58,735 nucleotides of DNA, from contig JAUPKI010000088.1 of NCBI GenBank assembly GCA_030837545.1, positions 1-58,735 of the forward strand, read 5' to 3'. Shown here one piece after another: positions 6,428-27,762 of the stretch (its first letter is position 1; every line of letters starts with the position of its first letter). The notes under the pieces are model-generated. The model ran no database searches and had not been told where the DNA came from. It saw nothing but the letters and a program-made list of their open reading frames with translations. The DNA comes from Thermodesulfobacteriota bacterium (lineage in GTDB: Bacteria > Desulfobacterota > DSM-4660 > Desulfatiglandales > Desulfatiglandaceae). Position numbers and translations under genes: made by a program.

Positions 6428-7474
6428 TCACGCTTTTGTCGTCGTCTCAGGCATAAAGAGATCGGAGAGCCGGGCGGCATTCCTCTCTTTCCAGGTCCCA
6501 CGGTGGTAAGCGTCGCTGATGAGAAGGGGGAAGGTCAGGGTGGCTTCCCCAAACACCATCTGTTCATATTCCAGGTCGACCTTGCCCCAGGAGCATGCCT
6601 CTTTGAGGGTGGACCCCGAGAGACCGCCGTCCCGTTCGTCTGCAACGGTAAGCTGAATCGCGTATTTGTGGACAGGCTTTTGTTCTCCCAGGATATCGGT
6701 TGCCACCACAACATCCTGGGTGAAGTTCTTGGGGACCCCTCCGCCGATCATCAGGATCCCCGTCTCCTTGGCGGCCAGCTTGATTTCGGTCAGCTCACGA
6801 AAATCACGCACCGAATCGATGGTAACGTGCGTGTTCTTCCTGTGCCACTGGTGATAGACCAGGCCGAACCCGGCAGAGGAATCGGAAAACGCCGGGACAA
6901 AGATGGGGACTCCCTGTTGATAAGCAGACAGGACCACCGACGAGGGGGACTTCAACCCTTCCGCCTCCAGATGCCGGCCCATGGCATGAATGAATTCCCT
7001 CGAAGAATAGGGCCTGGGGGGGAGGGCGTCGGCGATCTTGGCGATGGTCATATCGCAGACCCGCAACTGGTCTTCGTCGATAAACGTGTCGTAGATCCGG
7101 TCAATGGCCAGCTCGCTCAATGTCATGTCGTTGACAAAAGGGCTCCCCCGGTAGTGCCTGAATCCGAGGGCCTCAAAAAAATCCTGATCCACCATGATCG
7201 CCCCGGTGGAGACAATAGCGTCCACCATGCGGTGCTCGATCATGTCCACCACAACTTGTTTGAGACCGGCGCTGAACAGGGACCCTGCGAGCGTCAGGAT
7301 GATCATACAGTCAGGATCTGCCAGCATCCGGCTGTAGATGTCGGCTGCTGTGGCGAGATTCCTTGCCTGGAAGGCCGTCCTGGCATATGCCTTCATGATC
7401 GGTCTTGCATCAAATGCCTTGATATCGATGTGCTCTATGGGGGTTTTCAACAGATCATTCTTATTCATAACCAT
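6428..7474 (-). CDS. Deoxyhypusine-synthase-like protein
   Basis: 348 aa. Deoxyhypusine synthase transfers an aminobutyl group from spermidine to a lysine with NAD; bacterial relatives lack the eIF5A substrate and include homospermidine synthase-type enzymes. Visible motifs are GGGVPKNFTQD (about 244-254), DGGLSGSTLKEACSWGK (about 282-298) and ATLTFPLL (about 311-318). The Lys at 298 in SWGK matches the lysine that forms the enzyme-imine intermediate in the eukaryotic enzyme. AAGGAGA precedes the ATG. It lies 51 bases downstream of the agmatinase-family gene and shares its strand, so it belongs to a polyamine operon. The likely role is polyamine aminobutyl transfer (for example homospermidine-type synthesis), but protein modification cannot be excluded. 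Confidence 0.88.
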   Translation of the reverse strand: MVMNKNDLLKTPIEHIDIKAFDARPIMKAYARTAFQARNLATAADIYSRMLADPDCMIILTLAGSLFSAGLKQVVVDMIEHRMVDAIVSTGAIMVDQDFFEALGFRHYRGSPFVNDMTLSELAIDRIYDTFIDEDQLRVCDMTIAKIADALPPRPYSSREFIHAMGRHLEAEGLKSPSSVVLSAYQQGVPIFVPAFSDSSAGFGLVYHQWHRKNTHVTIDSVRDFRELTEIKLAAKETGILMIGGGVPKNFTQDVVVATDILGEQKPVHKYAIQLTVADERDGGLSGSTLKEACSWGKVDLEYEQMVFGEATLTFPLLISDAYHRGTWKERNAARLSDLFMPETTTKA

Positions 7475-7525
7475 ATCGGTCTCCTTACCAATTTCACATC
7501 ATCCCTACCCCTGAACCTCTGAACG

Positions 7526-8389
7526 CTACCGGCCAAAGATCATGCTCAACATTCGATAGATCAGTTTCGCGGCCAGGAAATCGGGGGCCTTGTTGTGGGG
7601 GTTTGGCAACAGCTCTGTCACATCCATCCCTACCACGTTCTTTTCCCTGATGACCGGCCCCAGCAGATTGAACAGGGTATACCAGTCGAGCCCTCCCGGT
7701 TCCGGTGTCCCGGTGGAGGGCATAATCGATGGATCGAGGACATCCAGGTCAATGGTGATATAGACATGTTGCGTCAGGGCCTTCAGCAGTTTCGGGGCCA
7801 AACCCATGCCCGTAACGATCTCATGGGCAAAGACCATGCGGTCCCGTTTTAGTCCTGCGGACTCGGAGACATCCATGCTTCGAATCCCCACCTGGACATA
7901 GGGACATATGTCGCCGATCCTGGCCATCACACAGGCATGATTGAACCGGCTTCCCTCATAGGATTCCCGCGTATCGCAGTGGGCGTCGAGCTGCAGGACT
8001 GAAAGCCCTGGAAACCTTTCTGCGGCCGCGCGAACCAGCCCCACGGACACCGAATGCTCGCCGCCGATGCCCACCACGAATTTGCGGTCCAATAATATCA
8101 ACCTGGCCTGGTCATAGACAACCGCCACCATCTGCTCTGGATCCGCCGGACAATCAACAGGTTCCATGGTTACGATCCCACGCCTAAAAACCTCGGTGTC
8201 CGTCTCGATGTCGTACAGCTCCATATGGGCAGAGGCATCAATCACGGCCTGAGGACCGAGGTCTGCGCCCTTCATCCAGGTGGAGGTAGCATCATAGGGG
8301 ATGGGCAGTACCGCAACCGTCGCGGTGTCATAACGGCAAAAATCATCATCCAGCGCTCCAAAGGCGCCAGGGTTTATGACGGATGTCAT
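7526..8389 (-). CDS. speB: Agmatinase/ureohydrolase family protein
   Basis: 287 aa. Family members cleave agmatine, or aminopropylagmatine in alternative pathways, to urea plus the polyamine, using two Mn2+. The metal ligands are visible: GGEHS at 109-113, DAHCD at 135-139 and DLDVLDP at 214-220. The C-terminal segment VVGMDVTELLPNPH is also characteristic. It sits nine bases downstream of the S-adenosylmethionine decarboxylase stop, so the two are one transcription unit, and the deoxyhypusine-synthase-like gene follows. Context points to polyamine synthesis, not arginine catabolism. No arginine decarboxylase or aminopropyltransferase is in the window, so the exact substrate (agmatine or N1-aminopropylagmatine) is open. 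Confidence 0.9.
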   Translation of the reverse strand: MTSVINPGAFGALDDDFCRYDTATVAVLPIPYDATSTWMKGADLGPQAVIDASAHMELYDIETDTEVFRRGIVTMEPVDCPADPEQMVAVVYDQARLILLDRKFVVGIGGEHSVSVGLVRAAAERFPGLSVLQLDAHCDTRESYEGSRFNHACVMARIGDICPYVQVGIRSMDVSESAGLKRDRMVFAHEIVTGMGLAPKLLKALTQHVYITIDLDVLDPSIMPSTGTPEPGGLDWYTLFNLLGPVIREKNVVGMDVTELLPNPHNKAPDFLAAKLIYRMLSMIFGR

Positions 8390-8398
8390 GAGGAACGA

Positions 8399-8800
8399 TC
8401 AGGCCGCCCGTTTATAGGCCACAGGAAACTGTTCACCCCGTTCGTATGTATACACCGAAGGGGATTTCGATTGAAAGAATCTGACGATATGGTCTTTGGC
8501 CCTTTCCACATCAAAGGGCTTACACGAGAACAGATCGACAAATGCGAAATTCTTGTGAGGGTAGGTGTGGAGAGAAATATGGCTTTCTGCGATGATGGTG
8601 ACGCCGGTGATCCCGGCATCCTCAGGCACCTGCCCGCTGTATCTGAATACATATGGCTGGGTTATCTTGGTCATGCCTATCTCTTCGGGCAGATCATTCA
8701 AGAGATTAAAGCAGGCATCGAGGTCATTCAGGATCTCCGGGTTGCACTCACCCAGATCCAGCATCAAGTGGGGGCCGTATCCGTATATTGTCCGGTTCAT
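8399..8800 (-). CDS. speH: S-adenosylmethionine decarboxylase proenzyme (SpeH type)
   Basis: 133 aa from the ATG at 8800, chosen because AAGGAGG lies just upstream; the open frame continues 29 codons further but without a ribosome site. The enzyme decarboxylates SAM to supply the aminopropyl donor for spermidine. It is made as a proenzyme that cuts itself before a serine, which becomes the pyruvoyl cofactor. The site is clear: AESHISLHTYPHK, with Glu72-Ser73 as the processing bond and the catalytic His in HTYP. FAFVDLFSC supplies the conserved active-site Cys. It is the first gene of a leftward operon with the ureohydrolase and the deoxyhypusine-synthase-like gene. A strong promoter lies about 135 bases upstream. 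Confidence 0.93.
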   Translation of the reverse strand: MNRTIYGYGPHLMLDLGECNPEILNDLDACFNLLNDLPEEIGMTKITQPYVFRYSGQVPEDAGITGVTIIAESHISLHTYPHKNFAFVDLFSCKPFDVERAKDHIVRFFQSKSPSVYTYERGEQFPVAYKRAA

Positions 8801-8935
8801 TTTGCATAAATCCTCCTTAGCTGTATACGTTTCACCATCTTTATGGGGTTGCGTTGATGAATCGTCTAAACCATTCACTTTTGGCAACCCGCGTCCTCAT
8901 ACCATGCATACTGTCTTTCAAAAAATTGAAGAGGC

Positions 8936-15345: not shown

Positions 15346-16596
15346 ATGTTTGAATGCAGCGAGACCGAGGCCTTCGGCCTGAGATGGCTGGTCCTGATCG
15401 GTCGCATCGACGCCATGAGCGCCGGAGAGATTGGCCGGAAACTGGCTGCCCTTCTGACGGCCGGGGAGCGGATTATCGGTGCGGACCTGGACGGGGTCAA
15501 TTATATCAGCAGCGCGGGAATACGCGTCTTTTTGTCTGCCCAGAAAAAGCTCATGCGTGTGAACGGCCAAATTGTCCTGGCCCACGTCCGGCCGGATGTC
15601 CTCGATGTGCTGAAGATGGGCGGCCTTGACACGGTCTTTCGCATTGCCGCAACCCGGGAGGATGCCGCCCGCCCGCTTCAGGGGGAAGCAAAAGACCTGG
15701 AACCGGTTTCAAAGGTCATCAACGGCATCCGCTTCACCTGGCTTAAGAAAGAGGGGCGTCCCGGCTTCCTGACCCTGATAGGGGGCCAGAAGCGGCTGAT
15801 TCATGCCGCCTATGAAGCCGAAGATGTGGTCACCATCCCGTCTTCTGACATGAAATTCGGCCTGGGCCTGGGGAGCCTGGGTCAGGAATGGGATCACTTC
15901 AAGGGACTTTTCGGCGAGGCCATGGTCGTTGACCACCATCTCTTTTTTTATCCCGCCGTAAAGAATCCGGCAGTGGACTTCATGCTCTGGTCAAGAGGAA
16001 ATCCTCCTCTGCCATATCGGTTCCTGAACGGTCTTTCGTTCGGCGGCGCCTATCAGTATGTGGCCTCCTTTGATGGAGAGGACCGGTCGGTTTCCCTGGA
16101 CAGCCTGATCAAGGCCCTTTTCCAGATTTCAGACGCCCCCCTGCTGGGGATCGTCCTCTTAGGGGAGAGCCGGGGGACCTGGGGGATGCACCTCAAGCGC
16201 GTTCCCGTGAAAGGTCTTTGGCCGGGGCCGGAGCCAGATATCTTCAGCCCCGCCCGTATTCATGACTGGGTGGATCTGCCGGTTGAGCCGGGTTTTGCCT
16301 ATCATACGGTGGTGGCTGCAGGCATTGGCGTCAGGGAGAGGGCGCTTGCGCCCCTGTCAGTGAAGACCTCCTTACCGGAGGGGCAGGATTTCCATGTGCA
16401 CGCGGGCATATTCGGCAAGGGTCTCTTCAGCACGGATCCAGCCGGTTTTGAAGAGGAGGTCAAGCGGATAGTATCCGAGTTCGAGGTCTTGAGGATTCAG
16501 CATCTCATGGGGCGGAGCCTTTTTAGGAGCGGTGTGGTGGGCGTGGTGGAGATTAGAGAAGGAGAGACCCGTGGAACTCTGGATCGGCGCCCTTAA
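15346..16596 (+). CDS. STAS-domain protein with an unrecognised C-terminal domain
   Basis: 416 aa from the ATG at 15346 (AAGGA seven bases upstream); an in-frame GTG at 15328 is an alternative start. Residues 1-105 are a STAS domain: LVLIGRIDAMSAGEI, then GADLDGVNYISSAGIRVFLS, which carries the serine position that is phosphorylated in anti-sigma-factor antagonists, then VNGQIVLAHVRPDVLDVLKMGG. The remaining 300 residues contain conserved-looking patches (VVDHHLFFYP, NGLSFGGAYQYVASF, LLGIVLLGESRGTWG, DFHVHAGIFG) that I cannot assign. No membrane segment is seen. It overlaps the next gene, an ABC permease fusion, by 26 bases, so it is probably a dedicated regulator of that transporter. STAS subunits acting on ABC ATPases are known (MlaB with MlaF), but a direct interaction here is inference. 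Confidence 0.8.
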   Translation: MFECSETEAFGLRWLVLIGRIDAMSAGEIGRKLAALLTAGERIIGADLDGVNYISSAGIRVFLSAQKKLMRVNGQIVLAHVRPDVLDVLKMGGLDTVFRIAATREDAARPLQGEAKDLEPVSKVINGIRFTWLKKEGRPGFLTLIGGQKRLIHAAYEAEDVVTIPSSDMKFGLGLGSLGQEWDHFKGLFGEAMVVDHHLFFYPAVKNPAVDFMLWSRGNPPLPYRFLNGLSFGGAYQYVASFDGEDRSVSLDSLIKALFQISDAPLLGIVLLGESRGTWGMHLKRVPVKGLWPGPEPDIFSPARIHDWVDLPVEPGFAYHTVVAAGIGVRERALAPLSVKTSLPEGQDFHVHAGIFGKGLFSTDPAGFEEEVKRIVSEFEVLRIQHLMGRSLFRSGVVGVVEIREGETRGTLDRRP

Positions 16597-19500
16597 CCTC
16601 GGGTTTCTGTACAGCTTCATGACCATGGGGGTGTTCATCACCTTCCGCGTTCATGATTTTCCGGATATCACGGTGGACGGGAGCTTCACCACCGGCGCCG
16701 CCACAGCGGCAGTTCTGATGATGGCGGGGGTAAACCCGTTTGTGGCCCTCCTCGCGGCATTTGGGGCCGGGGCCGCGGCAGGGAGTGTCACCGCCCTGAT
16801 CCATACCCGTCTCAACATCAACGGTCTGTTGGCCGGAATCCTGGTCATGACCGGTCTTTATTCCATCAATCTTCACATCATGGGCCGGTCCAACATCCCC
16901 CTCCTTAACCAGACCACCCTCTTTACCTATCTCGATAGGGTCAATCCCGGGCTCCACACGGAGGTGTGGATCACTCTCGCTCTTCTGGCGATCATGGGGC
17001 TCTTCTGGTGCCTCATGTCCCTCTTTTTCAGGACCGATATGGGGATCGCCATGCGGGTGACCGGCAACAACCCGGCCATGGCCGCTGCGGCCGGTGTCCA
17101 TGTGGGCCGCATGACCGTGCTCGGGGTGGCCCTGGCAAACGGCCTGGTGGGGGTATCCGGCGGTCTCATCGCCCAGTATCAGGGGTTTGCCGATATCGGC
17201 ATGGGGATCGGAACCATTGTGATCGGGCTGGCCGCGGTGATTATCGGCGAGTCTGTCCTGAGGATGCGCTCCATGGTCGCCATTGTCCTGAGCGTGATCC
17301 TGGGCTCGGTGATCTTTAGACTGATGATCGCTGTGGCCCTCTATGTGGGCATGAATCCCATTGACCTGAAGCTCCTGACAGCGGCCTTTGTCCTGGTTAC
17401 GCTCATTGTCTCAAAAAGGATTGGGGCCGGCCGCAAGGTGAGAGTCCCTCTGCTCGCACGCTTTTCAAGAATCCTGACAGGGAGGCGAATCACCCTTGCC
17501 CTGGCGGGGATCGGGGCCGTGCTCCTCGGGCTTGGGGTTTTGAAGAGCCATGAGCAGAAACCCTCGGGTCTTTCAAAGGGATGCAAGATCGGAGTCGTCC
17601 AGGTGGCGGATCATGGGCTCTTGAACATCACCCGGGACAGCTTCGTAGAAGAGATGAAGCGCCTGGGCTACAGGGAAGGCGACACCGTCTCGATCATGTG
17701 TGAGAACGCCAACGGCGACCTCCCGACGGTCAATACCATCCTGGATAAGTTCTTGCAGGAGGGTGTAAAGATCGTGATCCCCATCTCCACGGCATGCACC
17801 CAGGCCGCCATCAACAAGGTGAAGGACCGACCCGTGGTGTTCGCCACCGTGGCAAACCCCTTTGTCATCGGGGCCGGCAACTCGGAAACAGACCATCTTC
17901 CCAATGTGACCGGCGTCTACGGGTGGACCCCCATGGACAGGACACTGGAAATCGTGCGCAGGCTCGTTCCGGGCAAACTCACCATCGGGAGCATATGGGA
18001 CCCTGCCCACGCCAATTCCGTGTTCAATGTGGAGAATCTGAAGACTGCCGCGGCCGCATACCAGGACGTGACGTTCGAGGGCGCCACCATCACCGGCTCA
18101 TCCGAGGTCTACGATGCGGCCCGTTCCCTGGTGAACAAAGGGATCGACGCCTTTGTCCTAAGCCCTGACAACATCGTCTACTCGGCCTTTGAATCGGTGG
18201 TCAAGGCGGCCCGATCTAAGAAAATCCCCATATTCATGAGCGACGTGGAGCGGTTGCAGGACGGGGCCCTGGCCACCCTCGGCTATGACTACAGCATCAG
18301 CGGGATCCAGGCGGCCCGTCTAACGGACCGGATCCTGAAAGGGGAGGACCCCGCAAAAATCCCCTTTGAACGCTACCGCAAGGTCACCTTTGGTCTGAAC
18401 CTGAATGCGGCAAAGGAACTGAAGATCGCCATCCCGGACGACCTCCTGACCCAGGCTACCCAGGTATATGGCGACCAGAGACCGGGGCATAAAAGGAGGT
18501 CCCGCATCGGCGTGGTCCAGTTCGCCCTGGAGCCTAATGTGGAACTCTGCAAGGAGGGGATCCTCAAGGCCCTAACAGACAACGGGTATGTGGATGGAGA
18601 AAATATAGAGATCGTCTACAAAAACGCCCAGGCCGACTTCTCCATGATCAATGCCATTATCCAGGATTTTATTCGGCGGAAGGTGGATATCATCGTCCCC
18701 CTGTCCACGCCCTGCGTTCAGGCGGCCGTTCAACTGGGAGGGAAGGCACCCGGCACCAAGGTGGTATTTACCTACATCTACGACCCTTACCGGATCGGCG
18801 CGGCCCAGTCCCCGGACGACCATCTCCCCAATATGACCGGCGTCAGTTGCCCGCCGCCTATAGAAGAGATGCTCGCTCTCATCAAGGAGATGTTCCCTGA
18901 CAGGAAGAAGGTCGGCATCGTCTGGAACAGCTCCGAGGCCAATTCCGAGGCGACCCTGTTCAAGATAAGGCCGTATTCATTGAAAATCGGCCTTCAGATC
19001 ATCGAGGCCACTGTGACAGGTCCAGGAGAGGTGCTGGACGCCTCCCGGTCTCTGATTGTCAAGGGGGCGCAGGTCTTTTTGAATGGAGGCGACAATACCC
19101 TGAATGTCAGTTTTGACAGTTTTGCCAAGGTGGCGGACGAGAACGGAATTCCTCTGTTCTCGGTGGATTCCGAACTGATCGATAAGTCCTTGGTCGCCTT
19201 TGGACCCGATTACTACCAGACCGGTTATGACGGGGGAACCTATCTGGCCCGTGTCCTGAACGGTGAAAGCACGGCAGACCTTCCCATCTATGCCACAGAA
19301 AAGACCTCTTTTGTTATTAATGGCGATACGGCCGCGAGGCACGGATTCAAGATCGACAAAGAGATCTTGAAACGGGCAGACAAGGTCATCGGGCAACAGG
19401 AGGAGTCCTCCCATTCGGTCGGGAAACCGGAAAAGCGAATCGCCCTCTTTATGTTCAGCGATAACGAGGCCCTAACAGAAACGGCCCGGGGGGTCCGGGA

Positions 19501-20329
19501 TCAACTGGAAAAGAGCGGTATCCTCAAGGCGCACAACATGATCGTGGACCAGAAGAGCGCCCAGAACGAGTTTTACCTGGCCCAGTCCATTGCCCAGGAT
19601 ATTGTGCGGCAGGATTACGGCTTGGTCATTACCCTCTCCACCCCCATCCTGCAGATCATGGCCCGGGCCAATCAAACCACCCCGCATGTCTTTGGGGCGG
19701 TGACTGATCCTTATCATACCGGCGTTGCCACAGGTCCGCTCGATCATCCGCCCAACCTCACCGGCGTGGCCACCAGCGAGCCGGTTGAGACCACCATCCA
19801 GGCCATGCGGGAGGTCCTCCCCGATGCAAGGCGCATCGGCATGATCTGGAACCCGGCCGAGGCCTGTTCCGAGGTGTGCACCCTCAAGGCCCGAAAGGCG
19901 GCAGCGGCTCATGGATTTGAACTGATCGAATCCACCGTCAGCGGCCCTGCCGAGATCCACGACGCGCTCCGGTCGCTCTTGAGCCGGGAGATCGATATCT
20001 TTTACACCTCGGGGGACAACACGGTGGCATCGGTCCAGAAAACCATTATCCAGATCCTGAGGAAAGAGAAGATCCCCTGCTTCACCAATATTCTCTCTGA
20101 TGTGGAATCCGGCGCACTGGTATCCATCGGCGCTGATTTCTATGAGGTGGGGCAGGAAATCGCGCGGTTGGCAGCCCGGGTCATCGCCGGTGAGAGCCCA
20201 CAGGATATCCAGATCGAGGACTTTAGACCTGAGAAGATATGGGTCAATGCCGACATCGCAGAGGAATACGGCATCCGGTTCCCCCAGGACTTCCTAAACC
20301 GGGCCGAACGGGTCATTAGAACGCCATGA
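16571..20329 (+). CDS. Fused ABC permease with three tandem substrate-binding domains
   Basis: 1252 aa from a GTG at 16571 with GGAGAG directly upstream. Residues 1 to about 290 are a TrpY/COG4120-type ABC permease: LNLGFLYSFMTMGVFITFRV, DITVDGSFTTGAA, the cytoplasmic loop RVTGNNPAMAAAAGVHVG and GIGTIVIGLAAVIIGESV. An extra hydrophobic helix at about 306-324 precedes three complete PF04392-type substrate-binding domains: about 336-635 (IGVVQVADH), 643-940 (IGVVQFALE) and 955-1250 (IALFMFSDN). Each repeats a TGV motif (LPNVTGV, LPNMTGV, PPNLTGV) and a WDPAHANS-like motif (WNSSEANS, WNPAEACS). Normally the binding protein is a separate lipoprotein. Related three-gene systems transport tryptophan or tyrosine in Firmicutes. 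The ATPase gene follows with an ATGA overlap. The ligand is unknown. Confidence 0.93.
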   Translation: MELWIGALNLGFLYSFMTMGVFITFRVHDFPDITVDGSFTTGAATAAVLMMAGVNPFVALLAAFGAGAAAGSVTALIHTRLNINGLLAGILVMTGLYSINLHIMGRSNIPLLNQTTLFTYLDRVNPGLHTEVWITLALLAIMGLFWCLMSLFFRTDMGIAMRVTGNNPAMAAAAGVHVGRMTVLGVALANGLVGVSGGLIAQYQGFADIGMGIGTIVIGLAAVIIGESVLRMRSMVAIVLSVILGSVIFRLMIAVALYVGMNPIDLKLLTAAFVLVTLIVSKRIGAGRKVRVPLLARFSRILTGRRITLALAGIGAVLLGLGVLKSHEQKPSGLSKGCKIGVVQVADHGLLNITRDSFVEEMKRLGYREGDTVSIMCENANGDLPTVNTILDKFLQEGVKIVIPISTACTQAAINKVKDRPVVFATVANPFVIGAGNSETDHLPNVTGVYGWTPMDRTLEIVRRLVPGKLTIGSIWDPAHANSVFNVENLKTAAAAYQDVTFEGATITGSSEVYDAARSLVNKGIDAFVLSPDNIVYSAFESVVKAARSKKIPIFMSDVERLQDGALATLGYDYSISGIQAARLTDRILKGEDPAKIPFERYRKVTFGLNLNAAKELKIAIPDDLLTQATQVYGDQRPGHKRRSRIGVVQFALEPNVELCKEGILKALTDNGYVDGENIEIVYKNAQADFSMINAIIQDFIRRKVDIIVPLSTPCVQAAVQLGGKAPGTKVVFTYIYDPYRIGAAQSPDDHLPNMTGVSCPPPIEEMLALIKEMFPDRKKVGIVWNSSEANSEATLFKIRPYSLKIGLQIIEATVTGPGEVLDASRSLIVKGAQVFLNGGDNTLNVSFDSFAKVADENGIPLFSVDSELIDKSLVAFGPDYYQTGYDGGTYLARVLNGESTADLPIYATEKTSFVINGDTAARHGFKIDKEILKRADKVIGQQEESSHSVGKPEKRIALFMFSDNEALTETARGVRDQLEKSGILKAHNMIVDQKSAQNEFYLAQSIAQDIVRQDYGLVITLSTPILQIMARANQTTPHVFGAVTDPYHTGVATGPLDHPPNLTGVATSEPVETTIQAMREVLPDARRIGMIWNPAEACSEVCTLKARKAAAAHGFELIESTVSGPAEIHDALRSLLSREIDIFYTSGDNTVASVQKTIIQILRKEKIPCFTNILSDVESGALVSIGADFYEVGQEIARLAARVIAGESPQDIQIEDFRPEKIWVNADIAEEYGIRFPQDFLNRAERVIRTP

Positions 20330-21156
20330 TACAGATTACGGATTTTCACAAGAGATTTAATGCCGGGACCATCAATGAGGTCTATGCCCTGAAGGGGATC
20401 GACCTTCACGTGCACACAGGCGATTTCATCACCATCATCGGCACCAACGGGTCGGGCAAGTCCACGCTCCTCAATGCGGTAGCCGGCGCATTTCTGCCGG
20501 ACGTGGGCGCCATCGCGATCGCCGGAAAAGACGTCACTTTCGAGAGGGATTTTGAGAGGGCCAGATATATCTCCCGGGTCTTCCAGAACCCCTACACCGG
20601 TACGGCCCCCGGCATGACCATCGCCGAAAACCTGCTGATGGCCAACCTGAGAGGGAGGGCGCATTACCCGCGGATCAGCCTCAACAAGAAGCTCATGACC
20701 CAATTTGAAAAAGAGGTCTCCCTGCTGGAGATGCAGTTGGAGACGCGTCTGGACGACGTGATTGGGACCCTGTCAGGGGGGCAGCGGCAGGCCCTGACCC
20801 TCCTCATGGCCGTGATTCGCCAACCCAAGGTCCTCCTGTTGGACGAGCATACCGCTGCCCTGGATCCCAAATCAAGCGCCCAGGTCATTTCATTGACCCG
20901 GCGGTTCATCGAGCAGGGGCAACTGACCACCCTCATGGTGACCCACAGCATGCAGCAGGCCCTTCAACTGGGGACCCGCACCGTGATGATGCACCAGGGA
21001 CGCATCATTGAAGACATCTCAGAGCGAGAAAAGCCAGGCCTGACCGTGGATGATCTCTTAGACAAATTCGCCGAACTGCGCAAGCGCGAGAAGCTAACCG
21101 ACGACATTGTGGAGCAGTTGCGGCGGGAATACCTCATAAGTAATGATTATTGTTGA
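20326..21156 (+). CDS. ABC transporter ATPase (TrpZ/COG1101 type)
   Basis: 276 aa. Walker A GTNGSGKST (about 39-47), signature LSGGQRQALTLLMA, Walker B VLLLDEHTAALD and the switch His in TLMVTHSMQQAL are all present, so it should hydrolyse ATP. The Q-loop region QNPYTGTAPGMTIAENLLMANLR resembles ATPases paired with COG4120 permeases. The usual LDEPT is LDEHT, seen in this subfamily. The ATG overlaps the stop of the permease fusion by four bases (ATGA), so translation is coupled. It energises the fused transporter. Confidence 0.94.
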   Translation: MIQITDFHKRFNAGTINEVYALKGIDLHVHTGDFITIIGTNGSGKSTLLNAVAGAFLPDVGAIAIAGKDVTFERDFERARYISRVFQNPYTGTAPGMTIAENLLMANLRGRAHYPRISLNKKLMTQFEKEVSLLEMQLETRLDDVIGTLSGGQRQALTLLMAVIRQPKVLLLDEHTAALDPKSSAQVISLTRRFIEQGQLTTLMVTHSMQQALQLGTRTVMMHQGRIIEDISEREKPGLTVDDLLDKFAELRKREKLTDDIVEQLRREYLISNDYC

Positions 21157-21229: not shown

Positions 21230-22138
21230 TCAGAAGGCCTCGTACCTTTCGAGCTCCCTTTCAACCGCTTCTATCTCCTCTTCAAGTGCCTCGATGGCCA
21301 AGATCTGATGGGACCTGACAGAATGGGCCGGAAGTGCCGCTTCACGGTCTTTGAGATCTGAACGGAGTTTCTCAAGCCTTCTCATCAGCTTTTCCTTTTC
21401 CCCTTGAAGTTCCATTTCCGCCCTCCTCACTTCTTCAACAAAGCGTTTTACCTTCTGAAAGTCCTTTTGAAACCGGACCGGGTCCCCGGTATCCACCATT
21501 TGGTTGGTCTGGGTGCAGCTATCGGCCCCCGCGGGACGGACCTCCGTGACGGCGTCATAGACGTTTTCCGGAGACAGCCCCCCTGCCAGAATGACGGGAA
21601 GCCGGCTCTCGCGTACCAGGGCCCGGGCCATTTCCCGGTCGGCCAACTCACCGGTAATCCCGATGTATCCCTCCTCTGGGGCATTGCTTACCCAGGTGTC
21701 GATCAGGAAGATATCGCTGGAATCGTGCAGCATGCGGGCGATCTCGAGGGAGGGAAAGTCTGGCGCCGCGGCCTCTCTGGGAACGGGAATGGACCGGATG
21801 ATCCCCACGTCGTGGAATTCCTTTTTCAACTCTGACTGAAATTGGACGAATTTTTCCACGTCTACCAAGTTGCCTTCGTCATCCGTGAGGCTGTCGCAGA
21901 AATGGATGAAATCCGGCTGATAATAATCAATCACCCGGCTTGTTGCATCGCTGTCGTGAAAGAGCGGGATCAGACTGCTTTTCACGCCTGAGCCCTGGGA
22001 CAGACGGACTGTTTCCCTGAGCAGCGGGACGCGCCACTGGTCCAGGCTCAGGATCACGCTTCCGATATGGTTGACGCCCAGTTCAATACACGTTTCCGCC
22101 TCCTGCGGCGTCTGGATCTCGTATATTTGAATGATCAT
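21230..22138 (-). CDS. TrpF-like (phosphoribosylanthranilate isomerase fold) protein with coiled-coil tail
   Basis: 302 aa from the ATG at 22138 (AGGAG just upstream). Residues 1 to about 220 follow the TrpF (beta-alpha)8 barrel: LPVILAGGLSPENVYDAV at about 180-197 and VRPAGADS are near-canonical phosphate-binding strands, and the Asp in IFLIDTW (about 147) matches the general-acid Asp. The catalytic Cys of strand 1 (KICGIT in true TrpF) is replaced: IIQIYEIQT has Tyr6 at that place. A charged helical tail (about 232-300, LRSDLKDRE, ALEEEIEAVERELERYE) should form a coiled coil, which TrpF lacks. It is probably not the pathway enzyme. It converges on the transporter above, whose relatives carry tryptophan; a link is speculative. 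Confidence 0.75.
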   Translation of the reverse strand: MIIQIYEIQTPQEAETCIELGVNHIGSVILSLDQWRVPLLRETVRLSQGSGVKSSLIPLFHDSDATSRVIDYYQPDFIHFCDSLTDDEGNLVDVEKFVQFQSELKKEFHDVGIIRSIPVPREAAAPDFPSLEIARMLHDSSDIFLIDTWVSNAPEEGYIGITGELADREMARALVRESRLPVILAGGLSPENVYDAVTEVRPAGADSCTQTNQMVDTGDPVRFQKDFQKVKRFVEEVRRAEMELQGEKEKLMRRLEKLRSDLKDREAALPAHSVRSHQILAIEALEEEIEAVERELERYEAF

Positions 22139-22467
22139 GTGTCTCCTCATCTCAAGGCCTTTTGATATCTCTCACCCGCTCCGCTTGAGCTCACAGGGAT
22201 CACAGAGATAGACCTTAACAGGAATTCATCCTCACGTTTTCAGAGGACCGGTATCGGTAGGGTTAATGGCTGTGTCAAGATGGCTCAAAACAGAGGACCT
22301 GCTCTTATCTTTCAGGGTCATTGTCAAAAGGTGAAGTGGCTGATAGAGACTCCCTTTTCTGAAGGGAAGTGTAGAAGAAACGGACTTGGGGATCAAGAAA
22401 AAATCGGATTGCCTATTCTGACGGTCAACGGGCAGCAGCTATGGATTGCTCGAAGCCAGAATATTCC
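22139..22467. other. Intergenic region, no gene seen
   Basis: It lies between the divergent TrpF-like gene and the TetR gene. A 63-codon open frame at 22280 has no ribosome site or family resemblance, and I see no structured RNA. Confidence 0.5.
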
Positions 22468-22532
22468 TTGACAGGGTGATGAACAACCTTATATTATGAC
22501 GCGCGATTCATTTTTTGTAATGCTGCGTCATA
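22468..22532 (+). promoter_or_regulatory. Promoter and palindromic operator of the TetR-efflux locus
   Basis: TTGACA at 22468-22473, 18 bases, TATTAT at 22492-22497. The perfect 8-bp inverted repeat TATGACGC (22495-22502) and GCGTCATA (22525-22532) overlaps the -10 box and the start region. This is the expected position for autorepression by the TetR protein encoded 48 bases downstream. Confidence 0.55.
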
Positions 22533-22579
22533 TTCACAAACGAGGCAAGGATATCTTGCGGCCCTGGGAGAGTCAACCC

Positions 22580-23203
22580 ATGAAGAACGAGAAGCCTTCA
22601 AGGCGGCAAAGAGAAAAACTGCGGCAGCGCCAGGAGATGCTTGCGGCAGCCCTTGATCTTTTTGCGGAAAAGGGGTACCACAACGTCTCCATGCACGAGA
22701 TCGCTGAAAAGGCCGAGTTCGCCATTGGAACGCTCTACACGGTCTTCCAGAATAAGGAGGATCTCTATAAGGCCCTGGTCCTGGAGGAGTGCGACAGCTT
22801 TGAAGCGGCTTTGGTGCAGGCCATCGAGACGCCGGAAGACGAGATTGAAAAACTCAGAAATTATGTCCGGGTAAAGGGCGACAGGTTTCGCAGCAATCTT
22901 CCATTTATCCGCCTTTTTCTGGCCGAGAGCAAGGGGGCGAGTTTCAATATCCGGGCCGGACTGGATGAGGCCCTGCGGAAACGATACTACGCCTTCCTTG
23001 AAAGACTTGCTTTGATTTTTGAGAATGGCATCAAAAACAGACGGATCAGGAAAATCGCTCCCCCCTATCATCTGGCCGTCGCCCTCGACAGCGTCGTGGA
23101 TGCCTTTCTCCTTCTGTGGCTCGAAGCGCCCGAGCGCCATCCCTACCCGGAAGACCCTGACGCTATTCTGGATATTTTTTTCAAGGGACTGTTGGATCGG
23201 TAA
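22580..23203 (+). CDS. TetR/AcrR-family transcriptional regulator
   Basis: 207 aa from the ATG at 22580 (GGGAGA upstream); the frame is open further up, but that stretch contains the operator. The N-terminal helix-turn-helix is typical: AALDLFAEKGYHNVSMHEIAEKAEFAIGTLYTVFQNKEDLYKAL (shown in parts: FAEKGYHNVSMHEIA, then GTLYTVFQNKEDL). The C-terminal ligand-binding domain is helical. It is followed on the same strand by an RND adaptor and pump, so it probably represses the pump and is released by a pump substrate. The palindrome at 22495-22532 is a likely binding site. Confidence 0.92.
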   Translation: MKNEKPSRRQREKLRQRQEMLAAALDLFAEKGYHNVSMHEIAEKAEFAIGTLYTVFQNKEDLYKALVLEECDSFEAALVQAIETPEDEIEKLRNYVRVKGDRFRSNLPFIRLFLAESKGASFNIRAGLDEALRKRYYAFLERLALIFENGIKNRRIRKIAPPYHLAVALDSVVDAFLLLWLEAPERHPYPEDPDAILDIFFKGLLDR

Positions 23204-23364
23204 TCTGGAGCTGGATACTGGATGGTGGATGAGTGGAGACGGGAATGGGACCTTTTCTGCCTGCTGAACCCTTGGCCCCAGACACTGGATATTCGTTTCA
23301 GGCCGTAATCCTGATGCCTTGCGCCTTGCGCCTAACGCCTTCAGCTATTTTTAGGAGGTCTTTG

Positions 23365-24579
23365 ATGCGACTGAAGAAAAACGGCACGAAATTCTTGGAC
23401 TGGATGATGGCAGCGGCGGTTCTGGCGGGTTTCATCCTGCAGGCCGGGTGCGAAGACGGACACAGTCAGCAGCCCGCGGCGCCCCCTGTCCCCGAGGTGG
23501 CGGTCGTAACAGTCTCTACCCAGGCTGTCCTGCTCACCACCGAATTGCCGGGCCGCACCAGCGCCTACCGCATCGCGGAAATCCGTCCCCAGGTCAGCGG
23601 TCTCATCCAGAAACGTCTCTTTACGGAGGGGGCCGAGGTCAAGGCAGGCGACGTACTCTATCAGATCGATCCCGCTCCCTTTCAGGCGGCCCTCGACAAT
23701 GCAAACGCCTCCCTTGCCAAGGCCGAGGCCAATCTCCCCGCGATCCGTTCCAAGGCCGATCGCTACCGGAAATTAATGGCCTCCAACGCGGTCAGTCAGC
23801 AGGACTATGACGAGCGGGCCGCCGCCCTCGGGCAGGCCGAGGCGGAAGTTGACTACTGGAAGGCATCGGTAAAAACCGCCCGCATCAATCTGGGCTATAC
23901 CCGCATCGTGGCGCCCATCTCCGGCCGCATCGGCCGATCCAATGTGACGGATGGGGCACTGGCAACGGCCTATCAACCCCAGGAACTGACGACCATCCAA
24001 CAGATAGACCCCATTTACGTGGATGTGGCCCAGTCCACCACTGAACTCCAACGATTAAAGCGGAGCCTGGATGCCGGCCGCCTGAAACAGAGCGGAGAGG
24101 ACCGCAAGAAGGTCAACCTCATCCTGCAGGACGGCACGCCGTATCCATTGGAAGGGGCCCTTCAGTTCCGCGACGTCACGGTAGATCCGACAACCGGGTC
24201 CGTTATCCTGCGGGCTATCTTTCCCAATCCAAAGTCTGTCCTCCTGCCGGGCATGTTCGTTCGGGCCGTGGTCCAGGAGGGGATCGCCGACAAGGCCATC
24301 CTGGCGCCTCAGCAGGGGGTGAGCCGCAACCCGAAGGGAGAACCGATCGCCCTGATCGTCGATGAGAACGGAACGGTTCAGCAGCGCAGGCTGACTCTCG
24401 AGCGCGCCATCGGGGACCACTGGTTGGTCACATCGGGCCTTTCGGGGGGAGAACGTCTGATTGTGGAGGGCATGCTCAAGGTCCGACCGGGCATCACCGT
24501 GAAGGTTGTTCCCTTTGAGAGCGGCAAGGCCGAGCCAAAGGGGGGGCAGCCAACCGGAACGAGGGCGGAAACGAAGTAA
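23365..24579 (+). CDS. RND efflux periplasmic adaptor (AcrA/MexA family)
   Basis: 404 aa from the ATG at 23365, which has TTAGGAGG at good spacing; the longer frame upstream has no such site. The N terminus is a lipoprotein signal (VLAGFILQAGC, Cys at about 29), anchoring it to the inner membrane. The family signature TTELPGRTSAYRIAEIRPQVSG, the helical hairpin (NANASLAKAEANLPAIRSKA), the lipoyl/barrel return INLGYTRIVAPISGRIGRS and LLPGMFVRA are visible. It bridges the RND pump to an outer-membrane channel. The pump gene follows 12 bases later. Confidence 0.95.
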   Translation: MRLKKNGTKFLDWMMAAAVLAGFILQAGCEDGHSQQPAAPPVPEVAVVTVSTQAVLLTTELPGRTSAYRIAEIRPQVSGLIQKRLFTEGAEVKAGDVLYQIDPAPFQAALDNANASLAKAEANLPAIRSKADRYRKLMASNAVSQQDYDERAAALGQAEAEVDYWKASVKTARINLGYTRIVAPISGRIGRSNVTDGALATAYQPQELTTIQQIDPIYVDVAQSTTELQRLKRSLDAGRLKQSGEDRKKVNLILQDGTPYPLEGALQFRDVTVDPTTGSVILRAIFPNPKSVLLPGMFVRAVVQEGIADKAILAPQQGVSRNPKGEPIALIVDENGTVQQRRLTLERAIGDHWLVTSGLSGGERLIVEGMLKVRPGITVKVVPFESGKAEPKGGQPTGTRAETK

Positions 24580-24591
24580 CGGAGGGGTCTG

Positions 24592-27500
24592 ATGCTGTCG
24601 AAATTCTTCCTGGAACGTCCGGTCTTTGCCTGGGTCATCGCCATCATCATGATGCTGGCCGGAGGCCTGGCCATCTATAACATGCCCGTCTCCCAGTATC
24701 CGCCCATCGCCCCGCCCTCCATCGCCATCGATGCCTTCTATCCCGGGGCCTCGGCCGAGACCGTGGAAGACAGCGTGATCCAGATCATCGAACAGAAGAT
24801 GACCGGGTTCGACAAGCTCCTGTACATGACCGCCACCAGCGACGGCTCCGGCGCCGGGAGGATCGAACTGACCTTTGCCCCCGGCACCGATCCGGACCTG
24901 GCCTGGTCCCAGGTGCAAAACAAGCTGCAGCTCGCCATGGCCAGTCTCCCCGACGTCATCCAGCGTCAGGGCGTCAAGGTGAGCAAGTCCACCCGCAACT
25001 GGCTGATCATCGTTGGTCTGATCTCGGAAGACGGGAGCATGAATGGCAATGACCTCAGAGACTATGCGCAATCCAACATCGAGAAGGTCCTGGCCCGTGT
25101 GCCGGGCGTGGGCGAGGTGGAAAGCTTTGGCGGTCAGTACGCCATGCGGGTCTGGCTGAATCCGGACAAGCTGACCAATTACAAGCTGACGATAGATGAT
25201 GTCATCGCCGCGCTTCGCGCCTACAATGTGGAGATCTCCGCCGGCCAGTTCGGCGGGGCGCCGGCGGTCGAGGGGCAACGGTTGAACGCCTCTATTATTG
25301 TTCAGAACCTGCTCAAGACCCCGGAGGAGTTCGCCGGCATCCCACTCCGCATCAACCCCGACGGCTCCATTGTGCGCGTTCGGGATGTGGGATGGACCGA
25401 GCTGGGCACCGAACGCTACGATGTGGAGGGGCTCTTCAACGGCAAACCCAGCGCGGCCCTGGCGGTCCGGCAGGCCGCGGGCGCCAACGCCCTGGATACC
25501 GCCGATGCCATCCGGGCCAAGATGACCGAGCTGTCCCAGTACTTTCCGCCCGGGGTGAAGGTCATCTATCCCTTTGACACCACGCCCTTCGTAAAGGTGG
25601 CCATCAACGAGGTGGTCAAGACCCTCCTTGAGGCGGTCCTGCTGGTCTTTCTGGTCATGTTCTTATTCCTGGGAAACTTCCGGGCCACCCTGATCCCGAC
25701 CATTGCCGTGCCCGTGGTGATCCTGGGGACCTTTGCCGTACTCAACCTCTTTGGGTTTTCCATCAACATGCTCACCATGTTCGCCATGGTGCTGGCCATC
25801 GGTTTGCTGGTGGACGACGCCATCGTGGTGGTGGAAAACGTGGAGCGGATCATGAGCGAGGAGGGTCTCTCGCCCAGGGAGGCCACCCGAAAGTCCATGG
25901 AACAGATCACCAGCGCCCTGATCGGCATCGGACTGGTGCTGGCTGCGGTGTTCGGCCCCATGGCCTTCTTCGGCGGTTCCACCGGCGTTATCTACCGCCA
26001 GTTCTCCGTGACCGTCATCTCCGCCATGCTCCTCTCGGTCCTGGTGGCCCTGATCCTGACCCCGGTGCTGTGCGCCTCGCTCCTCAGGCCCGCGGTCAGC
26101 CGCCAAGAGAAAGCCAAGACCGGTCTCGCCCCATTCAGATGGTTTTTCCGGGGATTCAACCGCATGTTCAACTGGACCCGGGATCGTTACCAGGGGCTGG
26201 TCGCGCGGATCGTAGGCCGCAAGGTCCGCTACCTGGTCATCTACGTGCTGATCGCGGCGGGCCTCGGATTCCTGTTTCATCGAATGCCCACTGCCTATCT
26301 CCCGGATGAGGACCAGGGCATTCTGTTTATTCAGGCGATGCTCCCATCGGGTTCGACCCTGGAACAGAGCATGCAGGTGCTGGACGAGGTCCGTGCCTAT
26401 TTCGAGGAAGATGAACGAGAGGCGGTGTTATCCGTCATGACCATGGCCGGCAGAAGCTTTGGCGGCGGCGGGCAAAACGCCGGCCTCGGTTTTGTCCGGC
26501 TCAAGGACTGGGAACTTCGCGACCGACCGGATCTGAAGGTCAAGGCGATCGCAGGACGTGCCATGGCGCGGTTTGCAAAAATCAGAAATGCCAGGGTCTT
26601 TGCCTTTGCGCCGCCCTCGGTCACCGAGTTGGGCACCTCGGTCGGGTTCGACTTTCAATTACAGGATCGCGGCGGGCTGGGGCATGAAAAACTCATGGAG
26701 GCCCGCAACCAGTTGCTCGGCATGGCCGCCAAGGATGACCGAATGATTCGGGTCCGTCCCAACGGCATGGAGGATGTGGCCCAATACCGCATCGACGTGG
26801 ACTGGGAAAAGGCCGGGGCCCTGGGCGTTCCGATCAGTTCGATTCACAATGCGATCACAACGGCCTTTGGCGGCGCCTATGTTAATGACTTCATCCAGGG
26901 GGGCCGGGTCAAGCGGGTCTACGTCCAGGCCGACGCCCCCTATCGGATGCTTCCCAGCGACCTGGAACACCTTTACGTGCGAAACAATACCGGAGGCATG
27001 ACGCCGTTTACCTCATTTGCCTCAGGCCATTGGGCCTACGGGTCCCCGCGGCTGGAACGATTCAACGCCTTCCCCTCCATGAACATCCTGGGCGAGGCGG
27101 CCCAGGGCCGGAGCACCGGAGAAGCGATGCAGGCCATGGAAGAGATCGTAGCCAAGCTGCCCGAGGGGATCGGCTTCGACTGGAGCGGCATCTCCTATCA
27201 GGAGCGGATGGCCACGAAACAGACGGGGCTCCTCTACGCCTTTTCCATGATCGTCATTTTCCTATGTCTGGCGGCCCTTTATGAAAACTGGACGGTTCCC
27301 ATCTCTGTCATGCTCGCCCTCCCCCTCGGGGTCATCGGCGGCATAGCGGCCTCGATGCTGCGGGGATTTCCCAACGATGTCTACTTTCAGATCGGGCTCC
27401 TCACCGTGCTGGGGCTGACCACTAAAAACGCGATTTTGATTGTTCAGTTCGCCATGGCCAAGGTAAAGGAGGGCGCGGGGCTGGTGGAGGCGACCCTTGA

Positions 27501-27762
27501 GGGCGCGAAGCTGAGGCTGCGGCCCATCGTCATGACCTCCCTGGCCTTCGGTTTCGGGGTCCTGCCGCTGGCCTTGGCCACCGGGGCCGGCGCGGGGGCC
27601 CAGACCGCCATCGGCACCGGCGTCCTGGGTGGGATGATCACCTCGACATTTCTGGCGATCTTTTTCATCCCCCTCTTCTACGTGGTGGTGGTTCGTCTCT
27701 TTGCAAAGAAGAAAGTCAGCCGAACAGAAGCGCCTGTTTCGGATGCCTCGAATCTTCCGTAA
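24592..27762 (+). CDS. RND multidrug efflux pump, HAE1 family (AcrB/MexB-like)
   Basis: 1056 aa, full length for a trimeric inner-membrane RND pump with 12 membrane helices and two large periplasmic loops. Proton-relay residues are present: the Asp pair in AIGLLVDDAIVVVENVERIM (TM4) and the Lys in GLTTKNAILIVQFA (TM10). FFLERPVFAWVIAIIMMLAGG at the N terminus and the GPMAFFGGSTGVIYRQFSVT loop are standard. GGAGGGG precedes the ATG. It forms an operon with the adaptor; no TolC/OprM-type channel gene is in the window, so the channel must come from elsewhere. Confidence 0.97.
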   Translation: MLSKFFLERPVFAWVIAIIMMLAGGLAIYNMPVSQYPPIAPPSIAIDAFYPGASAETVEDSVIQIIEQKMTGFDKLLYMTATSDGSGAGRIELTFAPGTDPDLAWSQVQNKLQLAMASLPDVIQRQGVKVSKSTRNWLIIVGLISEDGSMNGNDLRDYAQSNIEKVLARVPGVGEVESFGGQYAMRVWLNPDKLTNYKLTIDDVIAALRAYNVEISAGQFGGAPAVEGQRLNASIIVQNLLKTPEEFAGIPLRINPDGSIVRVRDVGWTELGTERYDVEGLFNGKPSAALAVRQAAGANALDTADAIRAKMTELSQYFPPGVKVIYPFDTTPFVKVAINEVVKTLLEAVLLVFLVMFLFLGNFRATLIPTIAVPVVILGTFAVLNLFGFSINMLTMFAMVLAIGLLVDDAIVVVENVERIMSEEGLSPREATRKSMEQITSALIGIGLVLAAVFGPMAFFGGSTGVIYRQFSVTVISAMLLSVLVALILTPVLCASLLRPAVSRQEKAKTGLAPFRWFFRGFNRMFNWTRDRYQGLVARIVGRKVRYLVIYVLIAAGLGFLFHRMPTAYLPDEDQGILFIQAMLPSGSTLEQSMQVLDEVRAYFEEDEREAVLSVMTMAGRSFGGGGQNAGLGFVRLKDWELRDRPDLKVKAIAGRAMARFAKIRNARVFAFAPPSVTELGTSVGFDFQLQDRGGLGHEKLMEARNQLLGMAAKDDRMIRVRPNGMEDVAQYRIDVDWEKAGALGVPISSIHNAITTAFGGAYVNDFIQGGRVKRVYVQADAPYRMLPSDLEHLYVRNNTGGMTPFTSFASGHWAYGSPRLERFNAFPSMNILGEAAQGRSTGEAMQAMEEIVAKLPEGIGFDWSGISYQERMATKQTGLLYAFSMIVIFLCLAALYENWTVPISVMLALPLGVIGGIAASMLRGFPNDVYFQIGLLTVLGLTTKNAILIVQFAMAKVKEGAGLVEATLEGAKLRLRPIVMTSLAFGFGVLPLALATGAGAGAQTAIGTGVLGGMITSTFLAIFFIPLFYVVVVRLFAKKKVSRTEAPVSDASNLP

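Follow-up and report, generated by a model that had tools for sequence, protein, structure and literature searches.

One to three binding domains fused in tandem to an ABC permease and encoded beside an unusual STAS protein

Is a single polypeptide that joins the permease of an ABC importer to three of its binding domains an accident of one assembly or a genuine kind of transporter, and what might it serve for? The question is raised by a stretch of 58,735 nucleotides from a Thermodesulfobacteriota genome (contig JAUPKI010000088.1; "the window" in what follows). A sequence-only reading of this DNA had reported one uninterrupted frame running from a permease through an additional membrane helix into three binding domains. 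We confirmed this: the fused gene (16571..20329, plus strand) is open from a GTG at 16571 to a TGA at 20327-20329, and positions 16571-20326 encode 1252 aa. An alternative GTG upstream, at 16532, would give a product of 1265 aa. The GTG at 16571 lies inside the 3' end of the preceding gene (15346-16596), whose product we call STAS-X.

The first 286 residues (16571..17428, plus strand) form a COG4120/TrpY-type permease domain: BPD_transp_2 (PF02653) matches at full length over residues 7-276 with 74.6 bits (cut-off 26.8), and the helices are seen in the AF2 model. The extra transmembrane helix was found where it had been announced, at residues 305-327 (17483..17551, plus strand), by hydropathy and by AF2; it brings the chain outside and is found in 70 of the 71 fused loci. 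In the window protein it is preceded by a positively charged segment, which argues that the binding-domain tail is placed outside. Three domains follow on the plus strand: domain 1, of class A (17576..18478), domain 2, of class B (18491..19405), and domain 3, of class C (19421..20326). PF04392 matches the fused protein in three stretches (522.5 bits over the whole protein), and the domains scored singly reach 199, 166 and 169 bits, each above the curated cut-off of 25.9; all three are complete, as had been claimed. Searched singly against solved binding proteins, they gave best E values of 8e-40, 1e-41 and 8e-45, each of them matching 3lkv (with Phe bound), 6hni (CD0873, with Tyr) and 3lft (SP1069, with Trp; ligands from PMC6816091). 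The motifs attributed to each domain were only partly recovered: TGV is present in all three, while the second motif is DPAHANS, NSSEANS and NPAEACS in turn and matches NxxxANS exactly in the middle domain only.

In the AF2 model of residues 1-640, the helices of the permease are followed by a positive loop predicted with little confidence, the extra helix (here residues 305-326), a flexible linker and domain A. This domain superposes with Z 38-40 on 3lkv, 3lft and 6hni, all of them binders of the TrpXYZ/CD0873 type (for 3lkv, Z 40.1 and rmsd 1.4 A); the model of the permease with domain A, with a pTM of 0.51, gave no reliable docking pose. The gene of the cognate ABC ATPase (276 aa, 20326..21156, plus strand; PF00005, 98.4 bits) follows immediately, its start overlapping the stop of the fused gene in the ATGA at 20326-20329. 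The earlier suggestion that the receptors feed one channel would fit both this architecture and the coupled ATPase gene. Just past the ATPase gene, a frame on the minus strand (21230-22150) has a match to PF00697 (phosphoribosylanthranilate isomerase, 29.4 bits) and a charged C-terminal stretch; no clustered counterpart of its protein was seen beside the relatives.

One may ask whether the frame results from an assembly or sequencing join of separate genes, the window genome being in 456 contigs. However, independent assemblies of other phyla share the three-domain frame, the order of the classes and the anchor helix. Frames of 1250-1271 aa with three domains are present in other genomes and phyla, among them that of L036 (CP070825.1), which comes from a chromosome record of 4.4 Mb. 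Since the design recurs in many phyla, we concluded that the fusion is real and not an assembly accident, the probability of a join being negligible.

The sequence-only reading had taken the protein for an odd single case. This was wrong: the fused proteins are a clade whose members carry one to three binding domains each. We gathered relatives by a search with the permease, and found the fusion in records of Deltaproteobacteria/Thermodesulfobacteriota, Myxococcota, Aminicenantes, KSB1, Omnitrophota, Bacteroidota and Ignavibacteriota, as well as Calditrichota, Planctomycetota, Acidobacteriota, Nitrospirota, Cloacimonadota, Delongbacteria and one Chromatiaceae genome. The clade spans at least ten phyla; organism names are those of the records, which are mostly metagenome-assembled, and single placements may for this reason be binning errors. 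The fusion occurs only sporadically: of 395 Bacteroidota genomes drawn, 4 carry it, and of 395 in the window's own phylum, 13 besides the window; in the window's order it is present in 4 of 85 genomes, with three, one, two and one domains. A plasmid search gave nearly exclusively matches below 60% identity, which among the matches listed were short stretches (separate-gene relatives); one plasmid record matches at 60-80% identity.

The operon of STAS-X, permease with one to three binding domains, and ATPase recurs across many phyla; most loci keep the STAS-X gene upstream of the fused one, and the ATPase gene is present in nearly every complete operon. This is a real and widespread kind of probable importer, with tandem fused receptors and an unusual, hitherto unlabelled regulatory partner. 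In a tree of 116 permeases, all the fused ones stand on one side of a single branch (SH-aLRT 98). The next branches are unfused permeases, of which L022, L023, L105, L125 and L087 adjoin a STAS-X gene. As these nearest unfused relatives retain STAS-X, the partnership with the STAS protein probably predates the fusion. The locus L087:2-6241 (Cloacimonadota) has STAS-X, an unfused permease and the ATPase, then two separate binding-protein genes, an arrangement which plausibly resembles the state before fusion. On the stem of the fused clade, two unfused permeases of Chlorobiota (L088, L091) adjoin an ATPase-matching frame of about 780 aa, an unusual length.

In a tree of the domains, those that are fused form three groups, A, B and C, with supports of 93, 94 (100 without one long branch) and 99; the deepest forks of this tree are weak (33) and its drawn root is arbitrary. 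HMMs of the three classes tell every full-length fused domain apart with a margin of at least about 180 bits. Class A usually comes first, B is second in most triples, and C is third in triples and second in most pairs. In 50 complete fused frames from the genome collection (L038 and L072 were recounted by hand, separate genes having been mixed in) we counted 18 AC, 12 A, 10 ABC, 4 AB, 2 C and one each of B, BC, ACC and BCC; a few fused frames, for example in L051 and L080, are interrupted by frameshifts. All seven subsets of A, B and C thus occur, the window being A-B-C, and no frame departs from this order. The isolate Desulfoferrobacter suflitae DRH4 (L060) has class A alone. The window's sister (L007/L032), with a permease 85% identical, carries class B only; its domain shares 74% identity with domain 2 of the window and is attached directly after the anchor helix. 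Because every subset occurs in a constant order, the simplest reading of the pattern is an ancestral A-B-C triple followed by repeated in-frame losses; recombination between relatives may also have played a part. The two triples in which class C is doubled (ACC and BCC; L036:5998-9798 and L037:5983-9780) also show duplication or replacement. The idea that the sister genome L032 had lost its ATPase was dropped: an ATPase of 69% identity lies near a contig edge elsewhere in this genome.

The ligand residues of TrpX are T108, A127, T129, D152, N233 and Q273 (S. suis TrpX numbering; PMC9382623), which correspond to positions 114, 133, 135, 158, 239 and 279 of CD0873. Of 45 separate binding proteins, 98% have Asp at the position of TrpX Asp152 (CD0873 158); in the fused domains this position is Gly in 100% of class A, Cys in 94% of class B and Thr in 97% of class C, the window having Gly451 (17921-17923), Cys760 (18848-18850) and Thr1068 (19772-19774). 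The prevailing pairs at positions 133 and 135 are T/A for class A, Y/Y for class B and A/T for class C. No class carries the aromatic-binder residue set of TrpX: D152 is replaced everywhere, and A127 and T129 are changed in A and B. T114 (TrpX T108) is retained in all classes and TrpX N233 mostly so. In CD0873 the hydroxyl of tyrosine is read by position 263; at this site classes A and B have Asp and class C mostly Thr or Ser, with Ile in the window's C. Tyr279 is retained, with Phe in the window's class C.

The absence of Asp158 speaks against binding of an ordinary aromatic amino acid in the usual pose, and, judging from these residues, the ligands are probably other than plain aromatic amino acids. 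A plain tryptophan importer was rejected: the score of the whole protein against NF041285 (NCBIfam TrpX), 539.5 bits, is a sum over three repeats, and the single domains, at 185, 174 and 184 bits, miss this model, which asks for more than 390. Since class-specific residues are fixed at ligand positions, it is likely that A, B and C would bind three different ligands. The proposal of three different tethered receptors is borne out by their 29-32% mutual identity, their separate groups across phyla and their differing ligand positions. One could suppose instead that all three bind the same ligand, tethered copies only raising its local concentration: family and fold are common to the three domains, the T114 and Tyr279 positions are common to the classes, and the ACC and BCC triples carry two domains of one class. 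Mean identity, however, is 51-59% within classes against 28-32% between them, and together with the fixed class-specific residues at ligand positions this makes such a dose effect improbable. The loss of the Asp152 equivalent in all classes could also mean that at least one class no longer binds a ligand and acts as a spacer or docking inhibitor. We hold this to be very improbable: each class keeps its own replacement residues strictly from phylum to phylum, a sign of selection for a new ligand.

The most telling gene, that of the upstream STAS protein, lies outside the region to which the sequence-only reading had drawn attention. STAS-X (416 aa, 15346..16596, plus strand) was characterised with Pfam/NCBIfam, AF2 and fold search. 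Its STAS domain (aa 1-113, 15346-15684, plus strand) matches TIGR00377 with 58.4 bits (cut-off 53.45); the AF2 model has a pLDDT of 92, and fold search relates the STAS fold to SpoIIAA with Z 18.1. Ser55 and Ser56 are both invariant in 47 relatives, and Ser56 (15511..15513, plus strand), which we take to be the equivalent of the SpoIIAA and RsbV phosphosite, is a candidate phosphosite. The last 280 residues have no Pfam match at E 5, no NCBIfam family and no PDB sequence match at E 10. In the predicted model, residues 140-414 match the acetolactate decarboxylase (ALDC) 6j92_B with Z 18.6 and rmsd 2.7 A (205/209 residues), and the tail also matches the zinc protein 1xcr (Z 15.4, rmsd 4.4 A). 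The modelled tail (aa 140-416, 15763-16593, plus strand) is thus of acetolactate-decarboxylase-like fold; a SpoIIE-like fold had been considered, and fold search gave ALDC and PTD012 instead. His350-x-His352 (16393..16401, plus strand) and His386 (16501-16503, plus strand) are invariant in the 47 relatives, which suggests a candidate metal site. Any enzyme activity of this domain would be hypothetical.

Of 42 fused loci of at least 8 kb, 13 have genes for RsbW, SpoIIE or short STAS proteins nearby, against none of 23 unfused controls (Fisher p 0.0024). This excess is to be taken as a lead and falls short of proof, since phylogeny confounds it: related Bacteroidota account for 9 of the 13 positives, and most controls are Actinomycetota. 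In L036, genes for a short STAS protein, RsbW (HATPase_c_2), an NMT1-type binding protein, a Cache-HAMP-SpoIIE phosphatase, STAS-X, the fused permease and the ATPase follow one another in one direction, and in Bacteroidota loci a response-regulator-SpoIIE gene immediately precedes STAS-X. L040 has an RsbW gene too. Beside the fused importer genes, an RsbW-type kinase is joined to a GNAT-like acetyltransferase domain at L032:2282-3667, L033:3059-4588 and L063:3223-4749. The window has no RsbW/SpoIIE kinase or phosphatase gene near the importer operon, and candidate STAS/RsbW pairs are found on other contigs of its genome (C131 and C315). No T-box or other riboswitch was detected near the operon at Rfam gathering scores.

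What would such a system do? We hold with good confidence that the fused system would work as an importer. It would be an ABC importer of the TrpXYZ lineage in which three binding proteins of different specificity are fused in a row to the permease. With the permease working as a dimer, six tethered domains, two of each class, would surround each importer and take turns in docking on one channel, transport being driven by the downstream ATPase; the three kinds of receptor would compete for this channel in the manner of the two present in GlnPQ (PMC8025302). STAS-X would be a cytoplasmic subunit gating the ATPase or the permease, as MlaB does for MlaFEDB (PMC7367683), with Ser56 phosphorylated by RsbW-type kinases and dephosphorylated by SpoIIE-type phosphatases. 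We infer transport, ligands, dimer, docking and gating alike. That tethered receptors share one channel gated by STAS-X seems to us reasonably probable; phospho-gating by STAS-X, proposed by analogy, is possible, at somewhat less than even chances. The fullest version, a mix-and-match family (A, B and C in set order, any of which may be lost) in which a STAS subunit bearing an ALDC-fold metal domain and controlled by phosphorylation switches the common channel, can be put forward only tentatively; if it is true, a partner switch acts here on an ABC importer instead of a sigma factor.

The protein might also be more of a receptor than an importer: domains loaded with ligand would dock on the permease, and STAS-X would read the change of conformation and set an RsbW/sigma-factor switch. 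STAS-X accompanies the fused gene in a conserved manner and probably predates the fusion, and genes for RsbW, short STAS and Cache-SpoIIE proteins lie beside it in several phyla. Yet nearly every complete operon keeps the ATPase gene, and most loci, the window included, are without RsbW nearby; we consider this alternative unlikely.

The shared-channel importer can be compared with several known systems. With the TrpXYZ/CD0873-type aromatic amino acid importers (COG2984-COG4120-COG1101) it shares the families of permease, binding protein and ATPase, but there the binding proteins are separate lipoproteins, whereas here one to three are fused, Asp152 is replaced in all classes and a STAS-X gene is added. 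OpuA, for which we know of no STAS gene, offers another comparison. Its binding domain is likewise tethered to the permease (PMC11065425), but the families are different and each chain has one domain. In GlnPQ, too, different tandem binding domains on one permease chain compete for docking (PMC8025302), and here as there at least two binding domains are covalently linked to the transmembrane domain; those of GlnP belong to another binding-protein family, are two in number and precede the transmembrane domain, whereas here up to three follow it. Three receptors per chain, with natural relatives carrying every subset, make a good test of competition for one channel.

As for the STAS protein, MlaB is likewise encoded with an ABC transporter, MlaFEDB, of a different family; it binds the ATPase, and its STAS phosphosite is occupied by Thr (PMC7367683). 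MlaB is a minimal STAS protein without a known kinase, whereas STAS-X has a SpoIIAA-like STAS domain, the invariant Ser56 and a 280-aa ALDC-like domain. The MlaFB paper leaves open whether phosphorylation controls the STAS subunits of ABC transporters (PMC7367683); this becomes directly testable here, because a STAS gene with an invariant candidate phosphosite co-occurs in some genomes with kinase and phosphatase genes. The SpoIIAA/RsbV switches (RsbW kinase, SpoIIE phosphatase) share with STAS-X the STAS fold and the phosphosite serine and, in some genomes, nearby kinase and phosphatase genes; they differ in that STAS-X is fused to an ALDC-like domain and sits in an ABC importer operon. In a literature search we found no paper on PF02653-PF04392 fusions, on STAS with acetolactate decarboxylase, or on three fused binding domains, of which there may be earlier mention for other importer families.

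Some further genes near these operons can be recorded. In L047 (3-4709) a frame of 1569 aa with 15 PKD repeats lies directly upstream of STAS-X, and similar long frames occur in L038 and L046. Elsewhere in the window, genes of the deoxyhypusine-synthase family, the arginase family and S-adenosylmethionine decarboxylase stand in a row (6428-8887, minus strand) and form a polyamine cluster, and a TetR regulator gene is followed by an AcrA/AcrB-type efflux pair (22496-27762, plus strand).
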